From NCBI GenBank assembly GCA_949825025.1, contig OX463781.1:34299221-34363220 (forward strand): DNA of 64,000 nt, in the 5' to 3' direction. Each line of letters begins with the position of its first letter. Positions within the stretch are counted from its first letter, which is position 1. A model generated the notes under the pieces. It ran no database searches. It saw nothing but the letters and a program-made list of their open reading frames with translations, and was not told where the DNA came from. The position numbers and the translations under genes are program-made. The stretch is from Siphlonurus alternatus. Lineage: Eukaryota; Arthropoda; Insecta; Ephemeroptera; Siphlonuridae. Positions 3,201 to 47,411 of this stretch are shown piece after piece.

Positions 3201-6200
3201 GCTCCTTTTGCTGCTCCTCACGCTCCTTTTGCTGCTTCAGTATTGACGCTGCACACACCCAAGATATCACATTATAGACAAGATATAAACTTGACTTCTA
3301 TTACTCAGAATTAGACTCACAAACTATGGAAATTTTCGCAAGAAATTTCAACATTATTAAAAATTAAACTAAAATTGAACAAAAAATAGTTGTTTAAACT
3401 TTAAAATCAACATGATAAAATGTAAATAAAGGTTACAAAAAATAAAAAAAATCATAAGGTTGAACATACCATTCTCTGAGTCTAGGTATGACTTTTTGTT
3501 TCCTTTCTGCTGTCCAGTGACTTTCTCTGTGATCTCCATCTGACGGATAATCTCGTCCCGACAGTCTCCAATCTCTCGGCACAGCACTGCTTCCATGTCC
3601 GAGTCATCAAGTACGCCCAGCAGAGCATCAAGCTGCACAGCTGTCGAGTAGTACCAAACTTCCCCCTCCTCACTCTCTCTGTGAACACAATCACAAATTA
3701 TTGAACACTTCTCACCTTGAAAAATGTCCCTCACCACGAGATTGTGGCAATAACAGTAACGTAGCACAGCATTTGAAGAATAGATTGATGTCATTACTAT
3801 GTCTTGCTATTTTTTTTTTTTTTTTTATTTATTATTATTATTTTTTGGTATTATGATTGAGGTCTGTACATTTTATACTGGTATTGCCAGGCACGTTTTC
3901 CAGGTAACGGAAAAATTTAAATACTGTATTCAGTTTAGTCAGAGTACTGTACCCAACTGTATACTGTGTACATTATGGTTAAACTTAGGCATTGTTAACT
4001 TTAATATGAATCAACAAAGTTAAACCAACAAAGATGGTATGGATAGAGTTGAAAAGGTTCATTTTCATGACTTTTTTTAGCTTCTAACTAAGTCTCTTTT
4101 AAAGTTAAACTTAATTTATTCAATCAAGTTTATCCAGAAAAAACATGAAAGGACAATAAAATACAATTCATTAAATGCAACTAAAGCCAGTAATACATGA
4201 TACAATTTTCCTAATTATTGCATACAATTTTTCCTTGCAAGAAAACTTAATCTCCATTTGTTTGTATGGAGAGGAGATTTTCTTGCAAGGAAAAATTGTA
4301 CTGTATAATGTAGGCTTAAAGTAGTTCTAAATTAACCTTCTTCCATTTCCAATCATAAGCTGTATTTTTTACTGATAATTAAGCTTCATGAAAATGGAAG
4401 AAAGGCCATACTCTCAAATATATTTGGTGCACTCACACAAAGATTCTGCGAGCTAGGAACCAGTACTTGCGGCCCTGCCTGTCATAGCCAAGGTGCTCCT
4501 GCCGGTACAAGATGCTTGTTTTCTCAAGGGCGGAGGCGCAGTCGTAGACCCCGGGCACCTGGTGGGCCTTGCAGAGACTGCACTGCCAGTCGTTGGGGGG
4601 CACTTCTTCCATGGGAGGGTCCACACACTCAAGGTGGAATACAGCAGGACATGTCTCACAGCACAGCAACTTGCCCACACGATGGCATATCCGACAGTGG
4701 TCGTCATACTGAATATTGCCTGCAACCAAAATTATATAATTATGGCAGTGTTAGAGAAAGGAACAAAAAATCTGTGTAACCTGAAAGTTAGGAATTTTAA
4801 TATAAGAATACTGACAATGCCACGGCAAAAATGACTACAGTAACAGAATTTGACACCAAAAATTATAGAAATTTCAAGTGTTCTAAGGATAGAGCCCCCC
4901 CCCCCCCCTAAAAAAATAAAGGCTATTTATTTTATTATTATGAAATATCATAATTATAATCTTTAATTTTATTCCACAGCCATTTATTGAAGCTATTAAT
5001 TTGGGAAATTCTTCCACCTTTAAGGGTTGTTCAGATTTTAAAATCTCACTCTACTGTACTGAGTCTATTGAAATAGCTATCGTTAGTATACATTTAATAG
5101 GATGGTGCAAACTGAAAAATCTGCTAACCTCTGAAATTTAGGTTCTTTTATCTGATGACAAGAAATTTTATAACGAAAGACATCAGATCAATAAGTAACA
5201 TAATTATACTACAGTACGTAATACATTTTTTAATTCTTGTCTGGAGCCTTTGAAGATAATACAGTGTGTCACAACCATTATTAATATATATTTTCAGTTC
5301 TGTAAATTTATGTTGCTGCGTCAAAGCATATAAATTGCAGTATTTATTATTTTATGCTCACAAGACGAAGTAGTTTGTACTTCCAACAATGCATCAATAC
5401 CGTACACATTTATTAGTATGTAGTAGTTTAGGGTATTTGGGCTGCTTGAAATTTATACCTACCATATTTTGCAAAAAGCTTAACTACTCCCCCCCCCCCC
5501 CCACTCTTCATCATAGCAGAAAATACTTAAAATGCTTAGCAGAGCAAAAATATATACAAAAGTACAGCTCAGCAGAAAGTAATAAAATCAAGCTCATAGC
5601 GTTGAGATACTGTGAAGCTTTTGTCAGGTGATAAGTTTTTAACATTAATATAAAAGTTGTTGGTATTAAATTATCAATTTGCACAGTATTTAATGCTAAT
5701 ATTACTGTATTGTAATAACTTATTACAGTAGTAATAAATTATTCTTTTAAATATATTTATTGATTACAAATATATTTTGGTACCTGTAAGCAGAGCGACA
5801 AAAAAACAAAATTTACCAGTGTGACTAGTGTATACATACACGTACCAATTTCATCCAATATTTATCATGATAAGAATAATTCCAACTGAGTGCATGCTGC
5901 TACACAATACATGTACTGTATTGTACTGTTAATTGTCACCTCGGAAAATTTTTCTGACCAATAGATGGACACTAGTAATATGCATACACAAAAACAATCT
6001 GTTGTCCAGGAAATATTTTTAAGTTTTTTCCGCATCTGTAATAAAATAGATCAAAGGGCAAGATAGTTACCTTCGTTGAGCAGCTCCTCTCTCACAGGGT
6101 TGGTGGTGAGAAACTGGTCTGTGAGGAACTGAAGCACCTCCAGACGATCCTCAACGCTCACAAACGGGTACTCATTCTGACCGAGGATGTTCATGAGCCG

Positions 6201-7115
6201 TCCTCGTGAGAAGAACTCCTTGTCGCTCTCTACGTAAGAACGTAGAGCCTCTGGCCACGTCATGGTGTCAACGCAATACAACAAAATGTTGACACTGTCT
6301 CGGTGGTCAAGAGGACCGTAATGTGTTTGCTGAGCATCCTCTTCACGTAACAGGGCTTTTAGCATAGCTACGTGAACCTCCGCCAACAAAGCACTCTGCT
6401 CTTCAGACATGAGGCATGCACATAGGTCTTCAAATCTAAATGGTGATAATCTAGCAAGGTTACTAAAATGTCGAATCACTTCGTAAATACCTAAAGCCTT
6501 CATGGCTAATGATCTAGGTATAAGTAAATCATCTGATGATTGTGGTAATTCCAAAGGAGGAATTTCTTTTTCTTGTAACCACAATGGAATAGGGCTGGGA
6601 CGCTGTGATGATCTACGAGGTGTACCAGCCCCAACAGGACTTAACCTGGATACTGAAAATTCACTGTCACTTGAATTATCAACTTCTGTAAAAGTGTCAT
6701 TATCTTCTCCACTTTCACTTTCGTGGAATATTTCTTCTTCCAAATCACTTTTATTGCTAGCAGAATCATCTCCAAAATCCGAACCATAGTGATATTCAGA
6801 ATCTTTTTCATCTACAGCATCTGGATTGTAGCCTCTACGTTGATATGCTGAACCTGCACCTCCTCTTCTACTGGATCTGTTTCTCCCTCTTGAGCGAAAT
6901 CTCGAACTACGGCGTCCGACATCACTCACGGCCGGAGAAGAGGCTCTCGAGGCCGAGGGAGTACTTGACTGGGAATTTGGTGTTTCTGAACCCTTGGTTT
7001 CTCGATTTAGTAAATATTTAGGTTTTTTTAATAAATGCATTTGAAACTTTTTAGGTCTCTCCATCACTACAGACTTTGGGGGTCTACCCCGCCTTTTCGA
7101 ACCCCTTGTTGACAT
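275..7115 (-). CDS. BPTF: NURF301/BPTF nucleosome-remodelling subunit, N-terminal nine exons (partial)
   Basis: This is the large subunit of the ISWI-containing NURF remodeller, which reads histone marks in the nucleus. Nine exons join in frame to 876 codons: 7115-6071, 4719-4437, 3678-3470, 3248-3082, 2703-2502, 2078-1911, 1696-1514, 1007-786 and 423-275, all GT-AG. Seen in the protein: an AT-hook (KRRGRPPK, residues 7-14), Ser/Arg and acidic stretches, a DDT domain (about 200-265), and a C4HC3 PHD finger (C357, C360, C369, C372, H377, C380, C395, C398) followed by the WHIM-like GYDRxGRKYWFLARRIF block. Later come acidic low-complexity exons, the TRSKTGSLTPRTFN block, the NEERDKKRHLSHKFSLT block and a Lys/Glu helix ending GLKHQ. 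The start at 7115 opens the only long exon. The rest of the gene (Q-rich, C-terminal PHD, bromodomain) lies beyond the left edge. Family identity is very sure; exact exon edges are predictions. Confidence 0.95.
2818..2876 (+). repeat. dispersed 55 bp repeat motif, copy 1
   Basis: The core reads GGTTGGTTGGTATTTT, then a variable stretch, then TTTTGGTC and TATGCCCCC. It recurs in the same orientation near 58,128 and 63,248. It lies in a BPTF intron. This is the most diverged copy. It is probably the conserved part of an interspersed repeat whose flanks have decayed. Confidence 0.5.
4186..4315. mobile_element. small palindromic MITE in BPTF intron
   Basis: A long hairpin: a left arm with CAATTTTTCCTTGCAAG is mirrored by CTTGCAAGGAAAAATTG, around a short CCAT...ATGG loop. 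The outer ends, about AGCCAGTAATACATGATAC and its degraded mirror ending in GGCT, are imperfect. The right flank is TTAA and the left flank CTAA, so a decayed TTAA target duplication is possible. No coding capacity. Confidence 0.55.
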
Positions 7116-8861
7116 GTTTACTTTTTTTTTTTATTTACCTATCACTGGACGTTAGTTAACACGTGGGTTTTGAAAACATCCCACAAATTTCAAATGCAAT
7201 GGCACTGTCTTTTGCAAAATGGAATCCATGATTGTAGCGAGCACTTTGCGCGATATTTCGTCGATGATCACGTGATCATGCAAAGCCAAAGTAGGCCTAT
7301 TTTTAAAGCTCTGCTTACCCGTGGGCACCCATGCACACAAACAGGCGGCACATCCCACAAGTCTAATATCTTCCAAGCATCTTCGACGACACTTCGAAGA
7401 ACCAAATAATCATTCCGACGCGAAATGTAAAATGTAATGCAAGCTTATGGAACTGTTTGAGAACAAGTCACTGATTGGTCCTTCAGAAAGCCGCCATTAC
7501 AGGCCTCACATTACTATTTGAGATGCTTCTCTTCAATTAAAGCTCAATCAAAATACAAAATAAAATGCAACATTGCATTTTACATTAGTATATAAATTTA
7601 AGAAACATTTTATCAGTCACATATCCTAAAATGCCCATTTTCAACTTTGGCTTGGGACATGACACAGTAAATTAATTGACCAATAAGGGATCGCGTTACA
7701 ACGAAAGTAATTCTACATATGATCCATAGGTGGTAGCACAATCGAAAAATGAACCAATGGTAACGCTCCTATTTACGTTTAAATCATAATTAAAAAATGC
7801 ATAAAATGCATAAAAACTGCATTGTTATTTCAAACTAAATTATTTCTCAACAAAATTAATTTTTCAATGTTATAGTTTGAAGTAACAACAAATTAATCTT
7901 CAAAACTTGCAGCGAGCTACGCAGCTACTTCCGACCCGGAATACCCGGATTCGGGAATCTGAAATAAAAGGAAACTCTTCGATCGCATATTTTGTATTTA
8001 CATATTCCAATCCGGATCGTAAGATTCATAAACGGCGTAAACCCAAACATGATTTATTGATTTTAATTTAAAATTTTATTTTTTAAAAAATAAAATGTCC
8101 CGCATTATAACAATTTATTTTTCTATTTGTGACGCAACTTACTTAAAAAAGGGAGGGGTGACAACGAACTAAACCGAACTAAACGAAGCAGCGGGCGGGA
8201 AGTGAAATCGATCAAAAATCATCATCATTTTTTAAAATTGCAGCTGAATAATCGGAGAAAATATAATATATTGAATTAATATTCAAATTCGGTTTTAAAA
8301 TGCATTTTTAAATATTATTGTTCTATCTGCCGTATTGGTGGTGGGGAAAAAAAAATCGGTTATTATGATTCGAACCCATCAGAGACTCGTTAATTTTACA
8401 ACATTGAATCATTTGCATCACAGCACAGCGTCCGCCGGCCGCAGCTCGCAGCAGACGCCGGCGCAGGAGCCAATCATCTTTCGGGCCTTGCTTTCGGGCA
8501 ACATCGGGCTATTCGGGCTTGCTGAGCTGAGCTGAGCCGAGGCTACGAGGCGAGACAAAACGAACCCGGCCGAACCCGGCTTGGCTCCCGGCAAACCCCG
8601 CAAGCCCGGCAACCGGCAACCCGGCTACGACTCTACGAGGTTAACTACCGGCTCCCGGCCGAGAACAACAGCTGTGATTGCTGTAATGCTGTGAAGAGTG
8701 TGAAGTGTACGAGGACGTTGAGGACGAGTGCGAGGCCTGCTCCGCCTGCTTGAAGCGAGCAGTGTATTTATGGTGTAAGTTTCATTTTTCATTTATAATA
8801 GCTAATTACTTAACTACAGTCGTATGCATACAGTCTAACTTATTTTTCTTTCATCCCCCAG
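7116..8861. promoter_or_regulatory. head-to-head promoter region between BPTF and AIMP2
   Basis: No coding exon is recognisable here. The BPTF start codon and the first AIMP2 coding exon diverge from this interval. The 8,410-8,765 part is markedly richer in G+C and CpG than its surroundings and probably holds the AIMP2 transcription start and noncoding first exon (possible donor GTAAGT at about 8,775, acceptor CCCCCAG ending at 8,861). The BPTF 5' UTR is expected just above 7,115. Start sites are inferred, not seen. Confidence 0.5.
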
Positions 8862-18849: not shown

Positions 18850-21482
<2,633 letters not shown>

Positions 21483-34914: not shown

Positions 34915-36535
34915 CTAAGAGACACAAAGAAAATTCAGAAAAAAATTATTATTACTCGATCTTACACGACTTAATTAACACAAAGGATTTTCTTGTTTTT
35001 TTAAATCAGCTTTTTTAATTATGATTTCAAACATTATTTTGGTAAAGGCTTGAGTTTAAGTTATGGAACATTGCTCTATTTTTTAATGTCACATATCCAC
35101 AAATTAAAAAAATAAAACAAATTTAAAGTGTTGATACGTACGCCATACCGGTACAGTATAATACATTATAATAGCGGCACCATGCTTAGACTCCGCAAAG
35201 CTCTGCTGATGCTACTGTAGTCAATTTGCTGGTCTCTTTGCACTGCATACAGCACTGTATGTACAGAGCTTGCAGTACGCCTACTGCATGTATGTATGTA
35301 CCAATGGGGGACTTGAAAGTGTCTATATGCATACACAGGTCTTAAGGTGCTTTCACATATTCGAAAATCGCTACGGAGTTCCGTAGCTATGCCGTAGGCC
35401 TTTCACATATTCTCGTTCATCTGCGGCAGCTGCGGCGGAAAATCATGTGAATGCCGTAGCAAAATCAAACTCATCTTGATTTTGCTACGGAGTTCCGTAG
35501 ATCGATTGCGAGGTGCTACGGTGCAGCTACGGTGCGCCGCAGCAAAATCAACACATTTGCTACGGAGTGTTTCCGTAGCGATTTTCGAATATGTGAAAGC
35601 ACCTTTATGGATGATGTTATACAGGACATTTGGCATAAAAGTGATGAAATTGAAGTATTATTGAGAAGAATGAAAGCAGCGACGCAGCGACTGATCTTTA
35701 CTCCCCAAATTCAATGCACATCATTGCCGATATGATGTACAGTATGCCAAACAGCAAAACGCTTTTAAGTCTCCCATTCGTGCACATATTATCATAGCCT
35801 AGCCATCCACAGCTATACAGTATGCAGCTATTATAGACAGTATGCATACAGTAATTTTAATGCTTAATGTTCTATGCGTATTTTAAATTTTAAAAAAAGA
35901 AGCTTAGAGGGGAAAGAGACAGCTCGGTCAGCACACTATTTATATGCATACATATATCATGTATAAAATATGATATGAGCAAGAAGGGACTGCAAAAACT
36001 ACATGCACATATATAATACCACATATGCATACCCACATACCGTTATATTGTACCGTACAGTATGTATATTTTATATGCATACTGAGCCAACCAGCCAACT
36101 CACCATTATGATTTTGTATGGTTCTTAAAAGCTTTATTAACGCCTTTACAGACATTATTATGAATAAATATTAATATCCTAGCTACAAGAAATCATTATT
36201 AAATTTAAAAACAATAGAAAACTAGACATATGGTAAAAAAATTGCAGGAAAAACAGATAAAAATGCTGAACTGCTGAAGAAGCTTTCAAATTTCAAAGCA
36301 AAGCTGGGCGCCTGGGCGTAACTGCCAAAAACATATGTAACAGATTCCCGCCAATTTTTTATGCAGTTTCGGGGTTTCGGCGGTTTCGGTCCGTTTCGGT
36401 TTCGGTTTTTCTTGGTTTTCTTGGCTCTTTTGTTTAAAATGCGGCATAGTTTTAAATGCACATTTGGCCGATTTCGATTTCGGGCCACATTGCACGGGAG
36501 GCCGGCATGCAGTGTGTGCGGCAGAGGGTCTCTAG
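34915..36535. other. region upstream of the first CENPI exon found
   Basis: The missing 5' exon(s) of CENPI should lie here or beyond the transposon block. I cannot identify one. It contains a MITE (35,346-35,603), TATGCATAC-rich sequence around 35,940-36,080 and a run of TTTCGGT-like words at 36,365-36,415. Confidence 0.4.
35346..35603. mobile_element. 258 bp MITE with TTAA-like flanks
   Basis: The terminal inverted repeats are GGTGCTTTCACATATTCG at the left and CGAATATGTGAAAGCACC at the right, then GCTACGGA/TCCGTAGC repeated internally many times. The left flank is TTAA and the right flank TTTA, consistent with a mutated TTAA duplication. Confidence 0.75.
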
Positions 36536-36662
36536 ATTTAGATTTTAGATTTAGATTTTAACGCTCTGCGGCAAATGTGGCTAAACCACGGTGGCTCGCA
36601 ATATAGTGCTCAACGCACTCTTAAATCCCCCGTAACTCTCCGCCCCCACCACCTCGGACGGC
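36536..36662 (-). mobile_element. 3' terminal fragment of the B/D non-LTR family
   Basis: On the minus strand it encodes SYGGFKSALSTILRATVV followed by a stop and ends in a TTTAGA-type tandem tail (36,530-36,560). It abuts the 3' tail of element B, so two 3' ends of one family lie in tandem. It closely matches 19,120-19,286. Confidence 0.75.
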
Positions 36663-37983
36663 AGGGATAAAAAGATAAAAGATAAAAATTTAGTTTATAC
36701 TGCGGCAGTTGTGGTCACACCACTATGGCTCACAGTTTGTGTCCTGCTTGAGGTCTTGAGGTAACCAGCTCCTTGAACTTCTCAATCCTGTCCACGCCCA
36801 CCTCCGCAGACCCCAGCAGATTCCACTCTCTCGCCGTCCTCCTGATAAAAGAATACTTTCCCACATCATTGTAATTGCTACCCTGATACTCGAGCTTCCA
36901 TTCATGGTCCCTTCTCCCCAAATATCTTCCCCTGTCCACTTTTCCACTCATCTCCTCCCAACCCTTGGCATTCCTTGTAATTTTGTACATTGTTGTCAAT
37001 CTAATTTGCCTCCTCCTTTCCTCCAGTGAGCTCCATCCCAGTTCTCCAATCATTTGTGTGACACTCTCCCTTTCCTTATGAATTTCCCTTCCGTCACTCA
37101 CCAGTTTCCAGCTTCCCATTTTGCCAGTCACTCTTCTGGCCGCTCTTCTCTGTATCTTTTCCAGTTCCTTCTTTATTCCCTTCGTCCTATATGGGTCCCA
37201 AACGTTGCATCCATATTCTAACATTGGTCGGATAAGTGTTTTGTACGCTTTTTCCCTGATTTCCCTCCCCGTTCCTTTCAAATTTCTCATTACAAACTCC
37301 AGATTTCTTCTTCCTTTATTTGTGATGTATGCAATTTGGTCATTCCAGTTAAGCTTAGATTGCATTACCACCCCTAAATATTTATATTTCTTTTCCTCTT
37401 TAAGTTCAGCTCCGTCCATTTTATATATCGCTGTGCTTCCTGCTCTTTTCCTACTAAATTTGACTGTGCTACATTTATCAACATTAAGATGCATTTTATT
37501 TTCCTTTACCCATTTACCTACTATATTCAGATCCTCCTGAAGTATTTTCGTGTCGTCTTTGTCCTTAATTATTTTATATATAACACTATCATCTGCAAAC
37601 AGTCTCATTTTTGATTTAATTCCTGTTCCAATATCTTCAATAAAAATAATGAACAAAATAGGCCCCAGTACGCTGCCTTGAGGAACTCCTGACGTTACCT
37701 TTTCTTCCCCCGACATTGTTTCTCCTAACTTTACCCTCTGTACCCTGTCTGTCAGAAAATCCTCCACATATTTAGCTAATTGTTCTTCCTGCAGTGCCGC
37801 TCTAACTTTCCTCATTAGTATGTCATGCGGTACCTTGTCGAAGGCTTTTTCAAAATCCAAAAAGATTGCATGTGTTTCCCCCCCACTGTCCAGGCATTCC
37901 TCTAGTTCCTGTGCTAGCCCTAGAATTTGTGTATCACATGAATACTTTTCTCGAAACCCATGTTGTCGTGATCCAAAAAATCC

Positions 37984-38703
37984 CCCAGCAAACCAAAACC
38001 TGCTGGCCTACAGCTGGCCACAGACCGGCTTGCCACTGCTCTCATGCGCTGGCAAGCCATGCTGGTTCTGCGCTTTTCTTGTATACCGGCCAGATGCTGG
38101 ACCCAGCGCTGGCATGCCATCACAAAATTTAATTTAATTTGCAATTAAATTAAAATCATTCAGTATCACCTGAAAATTATTTTTATGCTTAATTAATATA
38201 AGCAAAATAAGAAAAAAATATAAAATTGAATAAAAAAATTGTCACCACCAGGAATCGAACTCAGGACCATTGGCACCGTAGGCAGGTGTCCTATCCCCTA
38301 CACTTGAGTGATTGTTAGTAAATATTTGATGTTAGTGCTTACTTATTATTCAAAATATTTGAACTTGTACGGATATGACGATTTCAACACAAACTGTAAG
38401 AAAAGTAGCATAAAAGTATAATTTCTTTGAAATTTTTAATATTTTCTTACGAATTTAAGTTGAGGGATGTTAGAAATACATGTTTCAAAAATAAAAATTA
38501 TTTGTCCCGAAAAAATTTCAAAATCAAAATTTATGGATGGCATACCAGTGCTGGCCAGCATATGGGCCTCTGAAGGCAAGCCGCATGCTGTCACTCCGTC
38601 AGATGGCCGACTGCTGGCCTCTGCTGGCAAGCCATCTGCCAGCAGTACCAGCAGCAGACCAGCAGCTGGCCAGCTGTAGGCCAGCAAGGCATGGTTTGCT
38701 GGG
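37984..38703. mobile_element. 720 bp inverted-repeat element inserted in element B ORF2
   Basis: The ends are CCCAGCAAACC...GCTGGCCTACAGCTGGCC and its mirror GGCCAGCTGTAGGCCAGC...GGTTTGCTGGG. Sub-terminal regions are dense in GCTGGC/GCCAGC words; the middle is AT-rich and carries a tRNA-like stretch. Removing it with one CC copy restores the polymerase frame, so a 2 bp CC duplication is the most that is visible. No transposase; superfamily not recognised. Confidence 0.8.
38241..38313 (-). other. tRNA-like sequence inside the inverted-repeat element
   Basis: On the minus strand it reads TCACTCAAGTGTAGGGGAT (A-box-like region) and, about 35 bases later, GAGTTCGATTCCTGG (a good B box), ending GGTGGTGA, which pairs partly with the start TCAC. 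The anticodon stem is poor, so it is a tRNA-derived or degenerate sequence, not a confident tRNA gene. Confidence 0.4.
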
Positions 38704-40595
38704 CCGTTCCTCTCCAGTTTATACCTAATATATTTTACAACCATCTTTTCCATAACTTTTGAGACTACAGACGTAAGACTTACTGGTCTGTAGTTTTTAA
38801 CATTATTTTTTGCTCCTCCTTTATATATTGGTACCACCCATGCTTCTCTCCAACCATCTGGCATTTTACCACTATTTATGATCTTTCTAAAAAGTAATGT
38901 TTGGTATTTGCAATGTTTATTTAAATTTAGTTTTAGAAAACTCGCTGTGATTCCATCAGGCCCTGGTGCTTTCCCCTTCGCCAGACTAAGTAAGGCTCTC
39001 CTAACGTCCTTGTATCTAACTCTGAATTTTTTATCCCTCCCTGATTCAATATTTCTACTGTCTCGATTTTCTCTATCTACTTCATCGTCTTTCCTCGTCT
39101 CCTCTTTTTTTTGAAAAACCCCCTTGTATTGTCTAGATAAAGCGTCAGCCTTCTCTTTATCCGTGGTATATATTGCCTGCTCGTCCTTAAGTACTGGTAT
39201 ATCATTCCTTGCTAGTTTCCTACTTCTAACATGCTTGTACAATTTAGTCCAGCTCTACATTTTGTTTCCTTCATCGAACATTTCATTCATAAAGTTTCTT
39301 TCCGCATTACTCTTCTCCCTGTTTAGCTCATTTTCCGTTGTTCGTAAAGCTGCCTTGTTTATCATACCTCTTTTATGCTGGTTATACTGCTTCCTAGCTT
39401 TCCGCTGTAGTCTCCTAATATTTTTATTCTGGAAACATTGCGATGAATCGCCTCCAGCTATCATTTTTACCGGTACGTATCTATCCCTTACTTCATTACA
39501 AATTTTTACATAGCTCTCCCACATTTCATTTACATTTTGTTCCTTCCCTGCCCACTCGGTATACCTCTCCTCAAGCTCTCTTTCCATTTCTACAATATCC
39601 GAGTCCTGGTAGCGCCAAAGTTTCCTCTTTTTATCTATTCTTTTTGATTTCTCGAAAACCAGCTCTACTACCGGAATTTTATGGTCGCTGATGCCGTCTA
39701 TTACCTTAGAATTTTGCCATATTTCTACTGGCCTGATCAGCACTACATCCAGTAAATTTTTAGTGCCATTCCCATGATCTCTAGTATATTCATCCACTAC
39801 TTGATTGAAATCTCTATTTACTATCTTAGCAGCTAATTTCTGGGTTTCCGCTCCCCTAATCTCACACCTGTTAGTCCAATCTACATTCGGAAGGTTAAAA
39901 TCTCCCATTATTATGGTAGTGTCGTCCTGCCTATATTCGTCTATTCTATTTATTATTCTTCCCAAAATTACATTGTTTTCCCTGTTGTCCTTTGGTCTGT
40001 ATCCAGCAATTATTTTAACCTTCTCACTTAAAATTTTAAATTCAATGCCTAAGAGTTCGCACTCTTCTTCTATCCAGTCCATTTTTCCTTGCAATTCCTT
40101 TTTAATTGCTGTTAAAATTCCACCGCCTCTCCTATTTCTGTCCTTTCTAAAAATATCATAGCCTGGCAACTGTAACTCTGAATCCAAAATAGAATCATCT
40201 AAATATGTTTCTACTACTACAATTACGTCCGGATCACAACAATCAATTTTTGAGCCTAGCTGTCTAATTTTCCCCAAAAGCCCTCTAGCATTTACATGCA
40301 TTAGTGTAATAGAGCCCCCCCTAGTGTTATTAGTAATTTGAAATGTCTTACCTTTGACTGCATTTGTTTCCTCCCCGGCGATATGGTTTCCCTCCTCGCG
40401 TGGCCTGCCAGCTGTCCTGGTAGATTTTATGTCAGCAGATGTTTTCTTTTGAGTATGCTTTTCCTTGTTTTTTCTTTCCATTATTTCATCGTTGTTTTCA
40501 AATTTTTTCGTCGTTTTTCCTATACATTTCGTAGTTGTTCCATTTTTATATTTCCCTTTTCCCCCCTCCCCCCATGTTGTGATCCGGTCCCTTCC

Positions 40596-42191
40596 TCAGC
40601 AGTCTAGAAGACTGCTAAGGAAACGACCAAGATGTTTCTCGACATGTGCCGCGTCCTTGGTCCATTCACCCTCGTTGATTTCCACCTCGTTCCAGACCTG
40701 GTTCACAGGGTTGAAATATTTCACCCGTTTTTGCCTGCAGATATCCATCATGACGTAATGTACATCCTCTCTTATTACATTGGGTGCACTCCAGTTGTAC
40801 AGTGGCCCTACCACCTTGATCCTGCAAGACTTCGCAGCCGAGTCCAGTGTTTTGTCGAGGAGTTTTCCAAAGCTGGCTCTGAACGCATTTTTCCTTGTTC
40901 CGAGTGCTTCGTTCAGTGCACATGTGCCCAGGTACAGTACAATTTCCTTGGTCTGTTCTGTAATTGGTGCTCCATCCAGTAACTTTTCCATAGATTCCAG
41001 TGAACTACCTTGGCTACACTGGTCTGGGAAGATCATGGCACCCTTGATTGATGTCACGACGTTCAGGCTGTCATCTCCGATGACTACTGCCATTTCTGAT
41101 GGCCTAGTATACACAGTGACCTGGATACCTGATCCTTTGAACACTCTGTTGATTTCCTTCTTGACCTCCTCCCAGTTGAGTTTGTCGATCCCGCACCCAA
41201 TCCTTGGCATCGCCAGCTTGCTTACTTCGTCGCTGAGGATTTGCTCTTTCAGGGCTTCCAAGCATCGCACCAGGTCTCTCATGTTGGGTTTTTCAGTTGA
41301 CCTATCCTTGGTGATCATATAGTAGAGTTTCCGTCCTTCACGAATGAGAGTTGCAATCTCTCCAATCCTTTTGTTCTGATCTCGCAGCACGTCCACACCT
41401 CCGAAGTTGTCTTTAAAGTAGTATGCTATTCCCGCACTGAGGCTCAGGTCAGCACCCACACAGTGAGCGAATGCCACCGACTTGTCCTCAACTTTGAAGA
41501 GATCTCCTTCAATCTCCTCAAAGCACCATTCAATAATGGCTGGGACCATTTCCATAACAGTAGGGAGTGTGTCCAGTCGTTGTTTTTTCATGTTTCCTAT
41601 TTCTAGTTCAAGGTCATTAACCTTTCTTTTTAGATTGTCGGTCTCCATTTTGTTTGCTGCTTCTTTCTTTTTATTTTCTATTAGGTAATGATTCATCTTT
41701 TTTTCTACTTCGGTTGCTACCTTATCTTTAATCATTTCTATCAGCAATTCATATGATAGGCCATCAGTATGCTGAGTTAACACTTTCCTGCCACTCTCTG
41801 CTCGTAGTCCACGGTTACCAGGGGTGGTATATGATTTCCGTTGTACTTTCTTGACAGACTTTCCACTTTCTTGAGTTCCCAAATTTTCCCACCCTGAGTT
41901 ATGATTTTCCCCACTATCCTTCTCCGAGTCCCTCTTCCCCTCATTACAATTACAATTGGGACAGAACCACTTGGATTTGTTGCCTGCTTTTTGCATTTTT
42001 CTGTACTCTGTTGGGTTTATATTTGCACATCCAGTATGGTACCAGGTACGACAATTTTTGCTTTCACATTCGATGCCTGGGTCGTCTGATTCAACTGGGG
42101 CCTCGCATCCACCACATGGGAACACAGCCTTTGCTGGAGCCTCAGGTGGTTGCATTTCCATGGTTTGTTTATTTTCCATATTTTTAGCCAT
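40596..42191 (-). CDS. Element B ORF1: PHD finger, TARG1-like macro domain, SGNH-like domain
   Basis: 531 residues, intact. Residues 26-80 form a C4HC3 PHD finger (C26, C29, C42, C47, H52, C55, C77, C80). A Lys/Glu-rich, probably coiled-coil, segment spans about 155-205. Residues 227-362 look like the macro domain of the ADP-ribose hydrolase TARG1/OARD1: EGDLF (228-232), AHCVGADLSLSAGIA, FGGVDVL, YYMITKDR (K295 at the position of the human catalytic Lys84) and AMPRIGCGIDKLNWEEV (D336 at the position of Asp125). Residues 368-530 resemble the SGNH esterase of CR1-type ORF1: GDDSL (S375), LGTCALNE in place of GTND, and DAAH (D513, H516). PHD and esterase modules are known in CR1-like ORF1. The macro domain is the surprise. 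Likely an RNA-binding particle protein; ADP-ribose removal is inferred from residues only. Confidence 0.88.
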   Translation of the reverse strand: MAKNMENKQTMEMQPPEAPAKAVFPCGGCEAPVESDDPGIECESKNCRTWYHTGCANINPTEYRKMQKAGNKSKWFCPNCNCNEGKRDSEKDSGENHNSGWENLGTQESGKSVKKVQRKSYTTPGNRGLRAESGRKVLTQHTDGLSYELLIEMIKDKVATEVEKKMNHYLIENKKKEAANKMETDNLKRKVNDLELEIGNMKKQRLDTLPTVMEMVPAIIEWCFEEIEGDLFKVEDKSVAFAHCVGADLSLSAGIAYYFKDNFGGVDVLRDQNKRIGEIATLIREGRKLYYMITKDRSTEKPNMRDLVRCLEALKEQILSDEVSKLAMPRIGCGIDKLNWEEVKKEINRVFKGSGIQVTVYTRPSEMAVVIGDDSLNVVTSIKGAMIFPDQCSQGSSLESMEKLLDGAPITEQTKEIVLYLGTCALNEALGTRKNAFRASFGKLLDKTLDSAAKSCRIKVVGPLYNWSAPNVIREDVHYVMMDICRQKRVKYFNPVNQVWNEVEINEGEWTKDAAHVEKHLGRFLSSLLDC

Positions 42192-42424
42192 TTTATTGAT
42201 TTAATTAGCAGTGTTTCAACGTAATAATCCACAAAATAAACCTCGTTTCTTACCTTGAAAGAAAACACGAGACTTTAGTTCCACTTTTCTTCCGCTGTAT
42301 GGCTGATGGCACTGTTTTCCCACCTTTTCTTGCCGTCAATTTTCCGCGATTTTTATTTCGTTGATTTCCAGTTATTTCGCGATGTACTATCCGTAATTTA
42401 TGAATTATGCGCTTTTCACGATAT

Positions 42425-43525
42425 TAAATTAAATGATTTTTATTATTTTATGCTTTCCAATATGCTAATTCAATTCTAATTTGCACTAAAACACGAGCAC
42501 TGACACACGAGCGATGTTCCTGTTCCAGTTCCAGTTCCCCATTCAGCACTCCCTCACTGTTCGGTTTATGAAGGAATACTTTCCCACATCGCTTCCACTC
42601 TACCCCTGAACTCCAGCTTCCACTGATGATCCCCCCTCCCAATATATCTACCTTTCCTAGTTCTATCGCTAAACTCGCTCCAACCTGCCATCTCCCTATT
42701 AACTTGAGAAACAAATTTCCTAATCGGTTGTACCTTCTCCTTTCCTCGAGTGGCTCCCACTCCAAAGTCTGAATCATTTTCGACACGCTTTCATAATCTT
42801 TCCACACCTTTTTGTCATCTGCAACTAATCTCCATTTTCTCATTCTACCCATAACTCTTCTAGCAGCCCTCCGCTGAACCTTTTCCAACTCCTTCTTTCC
42901 AATCTGCCTATATGGGTCCCACACACTACATGCATACTCCAGTATTGGTCTCACTAAGGTCTTATAGGCCTTGTCTCTGACAAATACAGTCGCCCCCTTC
43001 AGATTTCTCATAACAAACTCCAAATTTCTCCTTCCCTTTGACGTTACATACCTAATATGTTCATTCCAATTCAGCTCTCTCTGAAGAACCACCCCAAGGT
43101 ATTTATATTTATCGTCCTCCCTAAGTACCTCGCCTCTCATTAGGTATACTGCATCTTCTTTTACTCTTTTCCTACTAAAATTAACTACCGAACATTTGCC
43201 AACATTAAGACTCATACCATTTTTGTCCACCCACCTACCTACAGTGTCTAGATCTTCCTGCAGCTTCCTCTTATCTTCCTCATTTACTATTTTCCTATAC
43301 AATACACTATCATCAGCAAACAGCCTCATTAAAGAATCTACTCCCTCCGGCAAATCTTCAATAAAAATCAAAAACAAGATTGGTCCGAGGACGCTCCCCT
43401 GTGAAACTCCTGAGGTCACCCTAATCTCATCCGAAAAAGTTGATCCAATCTTCACTCTTTGGACCCTATCCCTTAAGAAATCCTGTATCAAGTCAACCAA
43501 ACATTCATCAAGCATACACTTGAAC
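42425..43525 (-). mobile_element. Element D: 5'-truncated relative of element B, 3' part
   Basis: Holds the last two thirds of a reverse transcriptase (42,448-43,525): QDFLRDRVQRVKIG, SGVSQGSVLGPILF, the FADD box, EYACSVWDPYRQ, VQRRAARRVMG and KGRYIGRGDHQW. It is clearly related to element B, with a frame change near the C-terminus. Its upstream end continues on the far side of element C at 47,578-47,622 (DKVPHSIVIDKLRRKF). The 3' end merges into AATAATAAAAATCATTTAAT beside element B. Confidence 0.85.
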
Positions 43526-44457
43526 ATGGCTGGCGACGATGACGCAAAAGTTTGTAGTGTCTGCGAAGAATCGCTAAATAAGGCTGAAAAATTTGTGACT
43601 TGTGGTTATAATTGCTCAAAATTGTTTCACTTACATTGTGCTGAAATAACTGAGACAGACTACAAGACCATAAACAGAAATAAGCACTTAATTTACAAAT
43701 GTGCGAGTTGCACCTACAATCAAGATACAACCGTCGACAGGTTGGTTGAAGAGCTTGTAAAACTAAAAACAGGCTTGGAAAATGTTACTCTTATATCTCA
43801 AAAGCATGATCAGCAACTGGAGGATTTACATTCGATAAAAAATCACTTCCTGGAGAAGCAAAATACTGTAAAAGACCATTTTCCTGAGGTAAAACAGAAA
43901 ACAGCTGATCGACGACCTGTAATACGCAACCCGCACAACACGACAACATCATACGCGGGAAAAATTAAAGCCTCTACAGCTGTGATGGACCAACAACATC
44001 AGTATGCATGTATGCATATGAATCCTCGATGGAGAAAAACGTCGATGAACATCTCACACGAGATAAAGATGATGACGAAAATCACCAAGACTTCACGGAG
44101 GTTCGCTACGACCGCCGCCGCCGCCGCCGTGAACATAAAATCGGCACAGCTAGCAGTGACTCAAGCTGCCCGCTAGTTGCAGCAGAAAAGAAGGCGTACA
44201 TCCACGTCTGGCGCCTTCATCCCAAAACTACATCAGACGAGGTTAAGAAACACGTCGACAAAACATTAGGTTGTGATATTGAGATTGAGACTTTAAAAGC
44301 AAGAGGTCCGTATGCCTCATTTAAAATTACAGCAGACTTCAAATTATTAGAAAAAATTCAAGATACGTCACTTTGGCCTCAGAATGCACTTATTGATCAA
44401 TTTAAATTTAGACCTCAGAAATCAGCTCCTGTAAAACAGCCCTTTTCATCAACATAA
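43526..44457 (+). pseudogene. Element C ORF1: PHD finger plus coiled coil and RNA-binding-like C-terminus, frameshifted
   Basis: Starting at the ATG at 43,526, the protein opens with a C4HC3 finger (CSVCEESLNK, CGYNCSKLFHLHC, YKCASC) and a predicted helix (LVEELVKLKTGLENV). A frame change near 44,000-44,020 moves the coding to the next frame, which continues with an acidic/basic linker (DKDDDENHQDF, then an arginine run) and a conserved C-terminal block (KAYIHVWRLHPKTTSDEVKK, ARGPYASFKI, SLWPQNALIDQF) of the type seen in PHD-containing ORF1 proteins of arthropod non-LTR elements. Stop at 44,457. The frame extending upstream of 43,526 is antisense to element D and not part of it. Confidence 0.75.
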
Positions 44458-44461
44458 GGTA

Positions 44462-47411
44462 TGTGTTACACCGGAAGCTATTTGCTCTCTTTTTCATGCC
44501 AACATTCAGGGCTTAAGTAATAAACTTCTTCCACTCGAAAACTTTCTTAAACCTTTTCCGCATCTCAAAATTGTTTGCCTAACTGAACATTTTCTAAAAT
44601 ATGGTGATTATTCTAGTCTAAAAATAAATGAATTTAAATTAGCAAGCATCTTTTGCAGGCAAAATAAAATACGAGGAGGTTCTTGTATTTTTGTACATGA
44701 ATCTCTAGAGTTTAAAGAAAGGACTGACTTAAATAAGCTTGCTGAAGAATTTAATTTTGAATGTTGTTGTGCAAATATTTCTTTTTTTGATACTTCTTTT
44801 ACTTTTGTATGTTTGTATAGATCACCAAAAGGCAATGTTGATGTGTTTTTTAATAAACTAGAAAGAATTACTAAGATAATATATTCTGAAAAGAGAGTTC
44901 CTATCTTATGCGGGGACGTTAATATAAATTTATTAAATAATAATTCTACTAGAAAAGAATTTAATTCTATATTAAATATGTGTAATCTTAATCCTGTAAT
45001 TTTCACGCCAACCAGGATATGCAAAACAACAGAAACTCTGATAGATAATATTTTTATCCCTAAAACTTTTTCATTTGATGTTTCTGAAATAAAAGTTTTA
45101 CCTTTTTATCTCTCTGATCATGAGTCACAATTAGTATCTTTCTTTAATAACAAGTCAAATGGGAATATTTCTGATAATAATATAAATCAACAAAAAAGAT
45201 ATTTTTCAAAGAAAAACATTAAAATATTTAAAAATTATTTGAAGCATGAATCATGGTCCACTGTTTATGAAAAAAATGATGTTGATGAAATGTTTAATGA
45301 ATTTCATAAATTATTTTTAAAATATTTTGAAAAAGCTTTTCCACTAATACAAATCCAGGAAGAAAAAAATGCAAAAAATAATAAAAGTAAAGCAAAAATT
45401 GATTTTATGACTACTGGTTTAAAAATATCAAGGGAAAAATTAAGAAATTTAAAAAAATTAAATAAATTATATCCTACTATATGGACTGATGAATATGTAA
45501 AAAAATATAAGTATATTTATAATAAATTAATTAGACTAGCTAGTAAGAAAAAAAACACAAGGCTTATAAATAATTCTGAAAACAAATCAAAAACAATGTG
45601 GGATATTATAAGAAGGAAACATGGTAAAACCATAGGGAAGGGTAAAATTTCAAATATAACTGTAAATGAAGAAAGTATTAATGATCCTCAAAGTATGGCA
45701 CAAATTTTTAGTGATTATTTTGAAAATTGCATATCAGAATGTAAAGACAAAATTGACTCTGCTACTCAAAATTCAAATATTTATGGTTTTATTAAAGTAA
45801 ATCCAAAATCAATGTTTTTGTCACCTTTAACAAATAATCAATTGCAAAAAATTATCAGACATTTAAAAAATAAAAAGTCATATGGTTTTGATAATGTGTC
45901 AAACTTTGTTCTGAAGTCCTGTTCAGAAGAGATTAATATGGTTATCACAGACATAATTAATCAATCTTTTATTGATGGTAAATTTCCTTCTGCTCTCAAG
46001 CATGCAATCATAAAGCCTGTTTACAAAAAAAGGATCAAAGACTGATGTAGCAAACTATAGACCTATAAGTCTACTCTCTGTGTTCTCTAAATTATTTGAA
46101 CAAGCATTTCTGATAAAATTCCTGCCTTTTTTAGAACAAAATCAAGTCCTATCAGAATTTCAACACGGATTCCGTAAAAATAAATCTACGGAAACAGCTA
46201 TGTTTCAATTAATTGACAGTTTATTAGAGAGTATAGATAACAAAAAGCAAACTGCTGGAATTTTCTTGGATCTGTCTAAAGCATTCGATATGGTTGAACA
46301 TGAAATTTTGTTAAATAAACTTTATAAATATGGAATCAGAGGACAAAGCCTCAACTGGATAAAATCTTTTCTTGAAAATAGGACACAGACAGTAGAAATA
46401 CCTTCCATTATAACTAATAATATGGTTAAATTTTACTCTGAGGAGAAAACACTTGTATACGGCCTTCCGCAGGGCACTTGTCTGGCACCGATACTTTTCA
46501 TATTATACATAAATGATTTGCCTTTAATTATAGATCACAGCAACTGTATGTCTGTGGAATATGCTGATGATTCTAATTTAAAAATAACTGGTGAAAATAA
46601 TAATGTACTCATAAATAACATAATAAGTTCAATTGAAAAGGTTAAAGTTTATTTTAATAATCTTGGTTTAATACTTAATGTCAATAAAACAGAAATTTTG
46701 CAGTTTCAGAATATTAAAAATAAAAACTCAACAATCACATCAGTTTCTGCAGCTGATCAATATATCACACTTAAAAACAATACAAAATTCTTGGGTATAA
46801 TTGTTGATGAAAATTTGAGATGGATAGATCATATAGACTATATTTGTAAAAAACTCTCCTCAGTAATTTTTGCTATTGGTGAACTGAGGCATGAATGTGA
46901 AGTTGAATGTTTAAAAACTTTATACTACTCAAATTTTTATTCACTTTTGAAATATGGCATCATTTGTTGGGGATATTCTCCTGATTTTAATAGACTGTTT
47001 AAACTACAGAAAAAAGTAATACGTCTCATGTATTTTGTAAAGAGGAGGTATTCTTGTATAAATCTATTTAAAAATAATGAAATTTTGACACTGCCAAGTA
47101 TTCTTATCTTTGAAAGTGTAAGCTATGTTAAAAAGAATATGGATGTTTTTAAACAGCATGAAGTAAATCATGGTCATAATACAAGAAACTTAAAACATGT
47201 GATAGCACCCAAATGGTGCAGACTTAATATGTACAAGAACGGTCCGTTTCTTAGCTGCCTCCGATTATATAATAAGTTACCAAGTAAGATTAAATGTATT
47301 GGAAATGTGAAATTATTTCAAACAGCTGTGAAAAAAATGTTAATTGACAAGTGCTTTTATAGTGTGCAGAAATACTTGGACTATGACTTTAATGATATCA
47401 TTGTAAATTAA
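44462..47411 (+). pseudogene. Element C ORF2: endonuclease plus reverse transcriptase, one frameshift
   Basis: From about 44,462 an AP-type endonuclease is encoded without an obvious ATG (LFHANIQGLSNK, CLTEHFLK, RGGSCIFV, YRSPKGN, CGDVNINLL, LSDHESQL). The polymerase follows (KNKKSYGFDNVSNFVLK). An extra A in a run of seven near 46,026 shifts the frame after KPVYKK; the next frame carries NYRPISLLSVFSK, FQHGFRKNKSTE, GIFLDLSKAFD, GLPQGTCLAPILF, the catalytic YADD box (EYADDSN) and a C-terminal WGYSPDFNRLFKLQKKVIR motif to the stop at 47,411. The rest looks intact, implying recent activity. ORF2 start may be by reinitiation or overlap with ORF1. Confidence 0.88.

Follow-up and report, generated by a model that had tools for sequence, protein, structure and literature searches.

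In a 64,000-nucleotide stretch of the genome of the mayfly Siphlonurus alternatus (assembly GCA_949825025.1, contig OX463781.1, positions 34,299,221 to 34,363,220; hereafter the window), we found a non-long-terminal-repeat retrotransposon, or long interspersed nuclear element (LINE), whose first open reading frame (ORF1) contains a TARG1/OARD1-type macro domain with its Lys/Asp dyad. The element, recognized from ORF1, ORF2 and their Pfam domains, extends from above position 42191 down to approximately 36533 on the minus strand, on which all features below lie unless stated otherwise. ORF1 (40596..42191; 531 codons plus stop) is intact and encodes a PHD finger, a predicted coiled coil, the macro domain and an SGNH-like domain, in this order. 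After a gap of 114 nt on the same strand, it is followed by ORF2, with an N-terminal endonuclease part (39255..40481; PF14529, E 2.9e-10; PF03372, E 1.9e-7) and a C-terminal reverse transcriptase (36730..37815; PF00078, E 2.8e-16). ORF1 thus lies directly upstream of endonuclease and reverse transcriptase on one strand, as a LINE ORF1 does, and the open reading frames and Pfam matches confirmed an earlier reading made from the DNA letters (the sequence-only reading), which had placed an intact 531-residue ORF1 immediately upstream of these enzymes. ORF2 is not intact in this copy: an in-frame stop (39257-39255) ends the endonuclease part, and about 720 bp are inserted within the reverse transcriptase coding region (37984..38703, no strand assigned), bounded by 37-bp terminal inverted repeats that are 89% identical; the kind of element is unaffected by this damage. 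The terminal inverted repeats of the nested element begin CCCAGCAAACC.

The macro domain comprises residues 223-362 (41106..41525). The match to human TARG1 spans the whole domain (residues 227-362, E 5.3e-37) at 48% identity, and the equivalents of TARG1 Lys84 and Asp125, K295 (codon 41307..41309) and D336 (codon 41184..41186), are present in all 6 proteins compared, ORF1 counted, so that the assignment of this part to TARG1/OARD1 in the sequence-only reading, dyad included, was borne out. Of the macro-family search and the structure prediction which that reading had proposed as checks, the latter yielded a fold closest to TARG1, whereas ORF1 narrowly missed the general Pfam macro model. TARG1 strips ADP-ribose from Glu/Asp residues as well as from DNA and RNA phosphate ends; on DNA ends, its D125A mutant is inactive (excerpts of PMC5725667 and PMC8053099). 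The domain is probably an active hydrolase, given that K295 and D336 are invariant in all six proteins and that no other well-aligned part is as well kept. A structure search with the ORF1 model also matched proteins of several insect-associated RNA viruses and of invertebrate iridescent viruses, probably through the macro domain.

To assess whether the fusion is shared, we relied on three protein searches, two of which scored the 7,997 candidates with the most words in common and one 368, with five relatives in total (P0001 to P0005); the second of the larger searches contributed no additional relative. P0001 (549 aa) shows all four parts in the order of ORF1 and is 53% identical across 96% of the query; the identity between the two is 68% in the macro domain, 62% in the C-terminal domain, 55% in the PHD finger and 33% in the linker. 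P0002 (483 aa) begins within the PHD finger, which is therefore seen only in part, and continues with the linker, the macro domain and the C-terminal domain (20%, 44% and 25% identity to ORF1, respectively, and 25% over the 24 residues of the PHD finger). Family copies devoid of the macro segment, which the sequence-only reading had named as the finding that would speak against it, were not what we encountered, since both P0001 and P0002 carry the segment. A private host exon was likewise rejected, because the domain order is shared by P0001 wholly and by P0002 as far as it is seen. P0001 bears a precomputed Pfam label (PF27108.1) which was not returned by the local Pfam scan.

The other three relatives are more distant in layout. 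P0005 (365 aa) consists of a TARG1-like macro domain followed by an SGNH domain (Pfam OSK, 7e-13), whereas P0003 and P0004 could be aligned convincingly to ORF1 over the macro domain only; their mutual similarity is limited to this domain, and columns outside it are therefore not evidence. In both, a long head precedes the TARG1-like macro domain and a low-complexity tail follows it, and these proteins may come from other retroelements or from viruses. The mayfly label of P0003 (Ephemera danica) is uncertain, because its source carries the flag UNVERIFIED_CONTAM. The five relatives are putative LINE ORF1s. Viral-contig scans with ORF1, the C-terminal domain, the endonuclease and the reverse transcriptase as queries returned no further relatives, and the window yielded no other copy of ORF1.

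The composition of ORF1 changes abruptly at the start of the macro domain. The G+C content at third codon positions (GC3) is 37% for residues 1-222 (83/222), as it is for the endonuclease reading frame (153/409 codons, stop counted), and 56% for residues 223-531 (173/309; 41525-40599). The two parts of ORF1 differ with a Fisher P of 2.4e-5 (P 0.02 at fourfold sites alone), and a free search for the breakpoint placed it after residue 230, with a score matched by 1 of 2000 permutations. Such a sharp step, from 37% to 56%, is what one would expect if the macro segment were a private insertion or an assembly chimera without a role in the element. We consider this very improbable: the step spans the macro and SGNH-like domains together rather than the macro domain alone, the reading frame is open throughout ORF1, and P0001 retains the same four parts, aligned over 96% of ORF1. 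Instead, because the step covers both domains, the macro and SGNH-like domains appear to form a single block attached to a head of PHD finger and coiled coil, which is in line with the modular evolution of ORF1 described for CR1/L2 elements (excerpt of PMC4120745). A constraint on codon use could also have produced the step.

As for the source of the macro domain, 40 of 50,697 records in a phage collection matched it, all below 60% identity, and the 8 of these 40 that were listed are 31-37% identical to the ORF1 domain. Viral contigs contained 23 stretches with the pattern, of which 7 are relatives at 34-35% identity; in the comparison underlying the tree below, seven viral-contig rows are 34-37% identical to the ORF1 macro domain and 35-49% to human OARD1. 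In prokaryotic genomes, one scan with a single narrow pattern gave 13 stretches and no relative. An unrooted tree of 14 rows placed the viral-contig rows on one side and human OARD1 together with the ORF1-type rows on the other (support 100/99); within the human-containing group, only the pair of ORF1 and P0001 was resolved (96/91). Thus, a source in a host OARD1 gene, as proposed in the sequence-only reading, is plausible (48% identity to the human protein versus 31-37% to phage and 34-37% to viral rows), and a phage or bacterial source appears less likely. The direction and source of capture are inferred, because OARD1 was represented by the human sequence, and the human protein itself reaches 35-49% with the viral-contig rows.

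The head of ORF1 is that of a PHD-type (Type III) protein. The PHD finger (residues 26-80; 41952..42116), already noted at these residues in the sequence-only reading, matches PF00628 (E 1.1e-5) and a Pygopus PHD (E 7.4e-7), Pygopus-type fingers being its best PDB matches, and contains C26, C29, C42, C47, H52, C55, C77 and C80; in the AlphaFold2 model this part is poor, with a predicted local distance difference test score (pLDDT) under 50. The same model contains a long helix, predicted to be a coiled coil, at residues 147-206 (41574..41753).

The C-terminal domain (residues 364-531; 40599..41102) has a predicted SGNH-like fold, as in Type IV (esterase) ORF1, with a degenerate catalytic set. 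Sequence searches for SGNH in this domain returned nothing usable, and the assignment comes from the predicted fold. The Ser-Gly-Asn-His active site is absent as judged by sequence alignment rather than by superposition: the motifs read GDDSL, and GTCA in place of GTND, the oxyanion Asn position is occupied by Cys, Cys and Val in the three proteins aligned, the catalytic Ser is shifted by one residue, and DxxH is retained in two of the three. The SGNH-like part of the sequence-only reading stood as regards the predicted fold, but the domain differs from the known esterase module in its catalytic set and would be a binding or scaffold module. Matches to designed-repeat PDB entries (best E 0.008) and to baeRF_family10 (E 0.023, in 1 of 3 members) were treated as chance.

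On balance, we consider it somewhat likely that ORF1, through its TARG1-type domain, takes mono-ADP-ribose off host proteins or the ends of nucleic acids encountered during copying and insertion of the element. The ORF1 protein, self-associating through the predicted coiled coil and with the SGNH-like domain for binding or as a scaffold, would ride in the RNA-protein particle of the element to the nick, where PARPs act. In the two least certain steps, the PHD finger may recruit the particle to chromatin, and ADP-ribose attached to Glu/Asp or to phosphate ends may be cleared by the hydrolase where the endonuclease has nicked the DNA, a reaction that TARG1 performs in vitro, allowing priming, second-strand synthesis and ligation to go ahead. 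It is possible, on a more tentative footing, that this is an animal LINE lineage with its own eraser, in which a chromatin-reading, self-associating ORF1 protein carries a TARG1-type hydrolase that clears ADP-ribose from the nick, from cDNA ends or from the RNA of the element. Taken together, what survives of the sequence-only reading is the TARG1-type domain, its dyad and the conserved domain order, without the esterase catalytic set and with capture from a host OARD1 gene plausible; that the element counters PARP signalling at the nick, as it also suggested, is hypothetical.

Several points weigh against an eraser at the nick. The locus itself is non-autonomous, because the ORF2 of this copy is broken, and the full architecture is present in P0001 and partially in P0002, that is, in 2 of 5 relatives, with adjacency to endonuclease and reverse transcriptase shown for 0 of 5. 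Moreover, human L1 retrotransposition falls to about half without PARP1 or PARP2 and is about 80% lower without both (excerpt of PMC8535693), so that loss of ADP-ribose at the nick could be harmful to the element; removal of mono-ADP-ribose, we infer, need not abolish recruitment based on chains. Finally, macro domains may bind without hydrolysing. The main rival is therefore a binder, because TARG1 is reported to interact competitively with RNA and poly-ADP-ribose (PAR) and to relocate in a PAR-dependent manner on DNA damage (excerpt of PMC5928194): the domain might hold RNA or PAR, either standing in for the missing RRM and CCHC modules or anchoring the particle at PARylated nicks. This would fit the help that L1 receives from PARPs, and with E values up to 1 allowed, Pfam matched none of RRM, CCHC and Tnp22 to ORF1. 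We nevertheless regard it as unlikely, since pure binding could dispense with the Lys/Asp dyad, which is kept throughout, and the domain is nearly neutral (22 K+R versus 23 D+E).

Alternatively, the macro domain could counter host defence or silencing based on ADP-ribosylation, like viral macrodomains, rather than damage signalling at the nick. The best rows of the whole-ORF1 structure search include proteins of Frankliniella- and Thrips-named viruses and of Kadipiro virus, presumably aligned through the macro domain, and mammalian SIRT6 silences L1 via mono-ADP-ribosylation of KAP1 (excerpt of PMC4695847). However, the evidence for silencing is mammalian and no defence target is known here, which makes this explanation rather improbable. 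KAP1 is not known from insects, which also counts against silencing.

The probable 3' end of the element is a short AATCTAA-type tandem repeat (36533..36560; Tandem Repeats Finder). Similarity at the DNA level to a 3' fragment of a related element near 19 kb (19010..19277, plus strand) breaks off within this repeat; the fragment has 50% amino acid identity over 70 residues and 88% DNA identity over 137 columns to the 3' region of the element. The 5' end is undefined, and no exact 9-20 nt repeat, as in a target-site duplication, was shared between 42200-42760 and 36400-36560. Directly upstream lies a reverse transcriptase fragment of a related element (42448..43527; PF00078; 61% amino acid identity over 271 residues), which is abutted at 43527 by the ORF1 start of a second, distant LINE on the plus strand (43526-47411). 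The latter encodes an ORF1 with a PHD finger (43526-44176; PF00628, E 1.5e-4, just under the cut-off) and a reverse transcriptase (46200-47411; PF00078, 6e-23) with about 25% identity to that of the first element over 240 residues. The window also contains two host exons, one with DDT (3e-17) and WHIM1 (2e-6) domains (6057-7130) and one weakly WSD-like (3372-3806, E 0.076), which we take to belong to a gene probably of the NURF301/BPTF family.

ORF1 proteins count among the more poorly understood components of LINEs, and a built-in ADP-ribose hydrolase would tie retrotransposition directly to ADP-ribose signalling, for which opposite roles are reported in mammals, with PARPs helping L1 and KAP1 mono-ADP-ribosylation silencing it. 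If our interpretation is true, no ADP-ribosylhydrolase would have been known from within a retrotransposon particle before this one. With its dyad, a simple genetic test needs to change two residues only, and the domain is a natural tool for asking if ADP-ribosylated DNA or RNA ends are left behind by target-primed reverse transcription. In agreement with the sequence-only reading, which knew of no non-LTR ORF1 with an OARD1-type macro domain, no LINE with a macro domain was found among the matches listed in the openly licensed literature, Repbase lying outside this scope. One paper combining macro domain, non-LTR retrotransposon and ORF1 concerns, in its excerpt, an L1 insertion in MACROD2, and the excerpts of two further candidates mention macro domains only for bacterial conflict systems.

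Among known systems, CR1/L2 LINEs with a PHD finger in ORF1 (types III, IC and IIC) share the N-terminal PHD followed by endonuclease and reverse transcriptase; the other domains named in that census of 448 elements are RRM, CCHC, Tnp22, zinc-finger/leucine-zipper and esterase, and the word macro is absent from its text (PMC4120745). Type IV esterase ORF1 of ZfL2-1 and CR1 shares a predicted coiled coil and an SGNH-like fold upstream of endonuclease and reverse transcriptase, but its active site is reported to be strongly conserved (excerpt of PMC3905857), whereas here Asn is replaced and Ser displaced. Bdelloid retroelements with captured GDSL esterase or exonuclease reading frames resemble the present element in the uptake of an accessory enzyme; their esterase is, however, ORF3 of LTR elements, and the paper mentions neither macro domains nor ADP-ribosylation (PMC5408684). 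P0005 is similar to ORF1 in that its TARG1-like macro domain precedes an SGNH domain, but it is without PHD finger and coiled coil, its SGNH motifs (GDS, GTND and DxxH) look complete, and it possibly represents a second element type. Human TARG1/OARD1 (C6orf130), an ALC1-like macrodomain hydrolase, is alike in identity, predicted fold and the Lys84/Asp125 equivalents. TARG1 is a free-standing single-domain enzyme, whereas the macro domain described here is one module of a retrotransposon ORF1.
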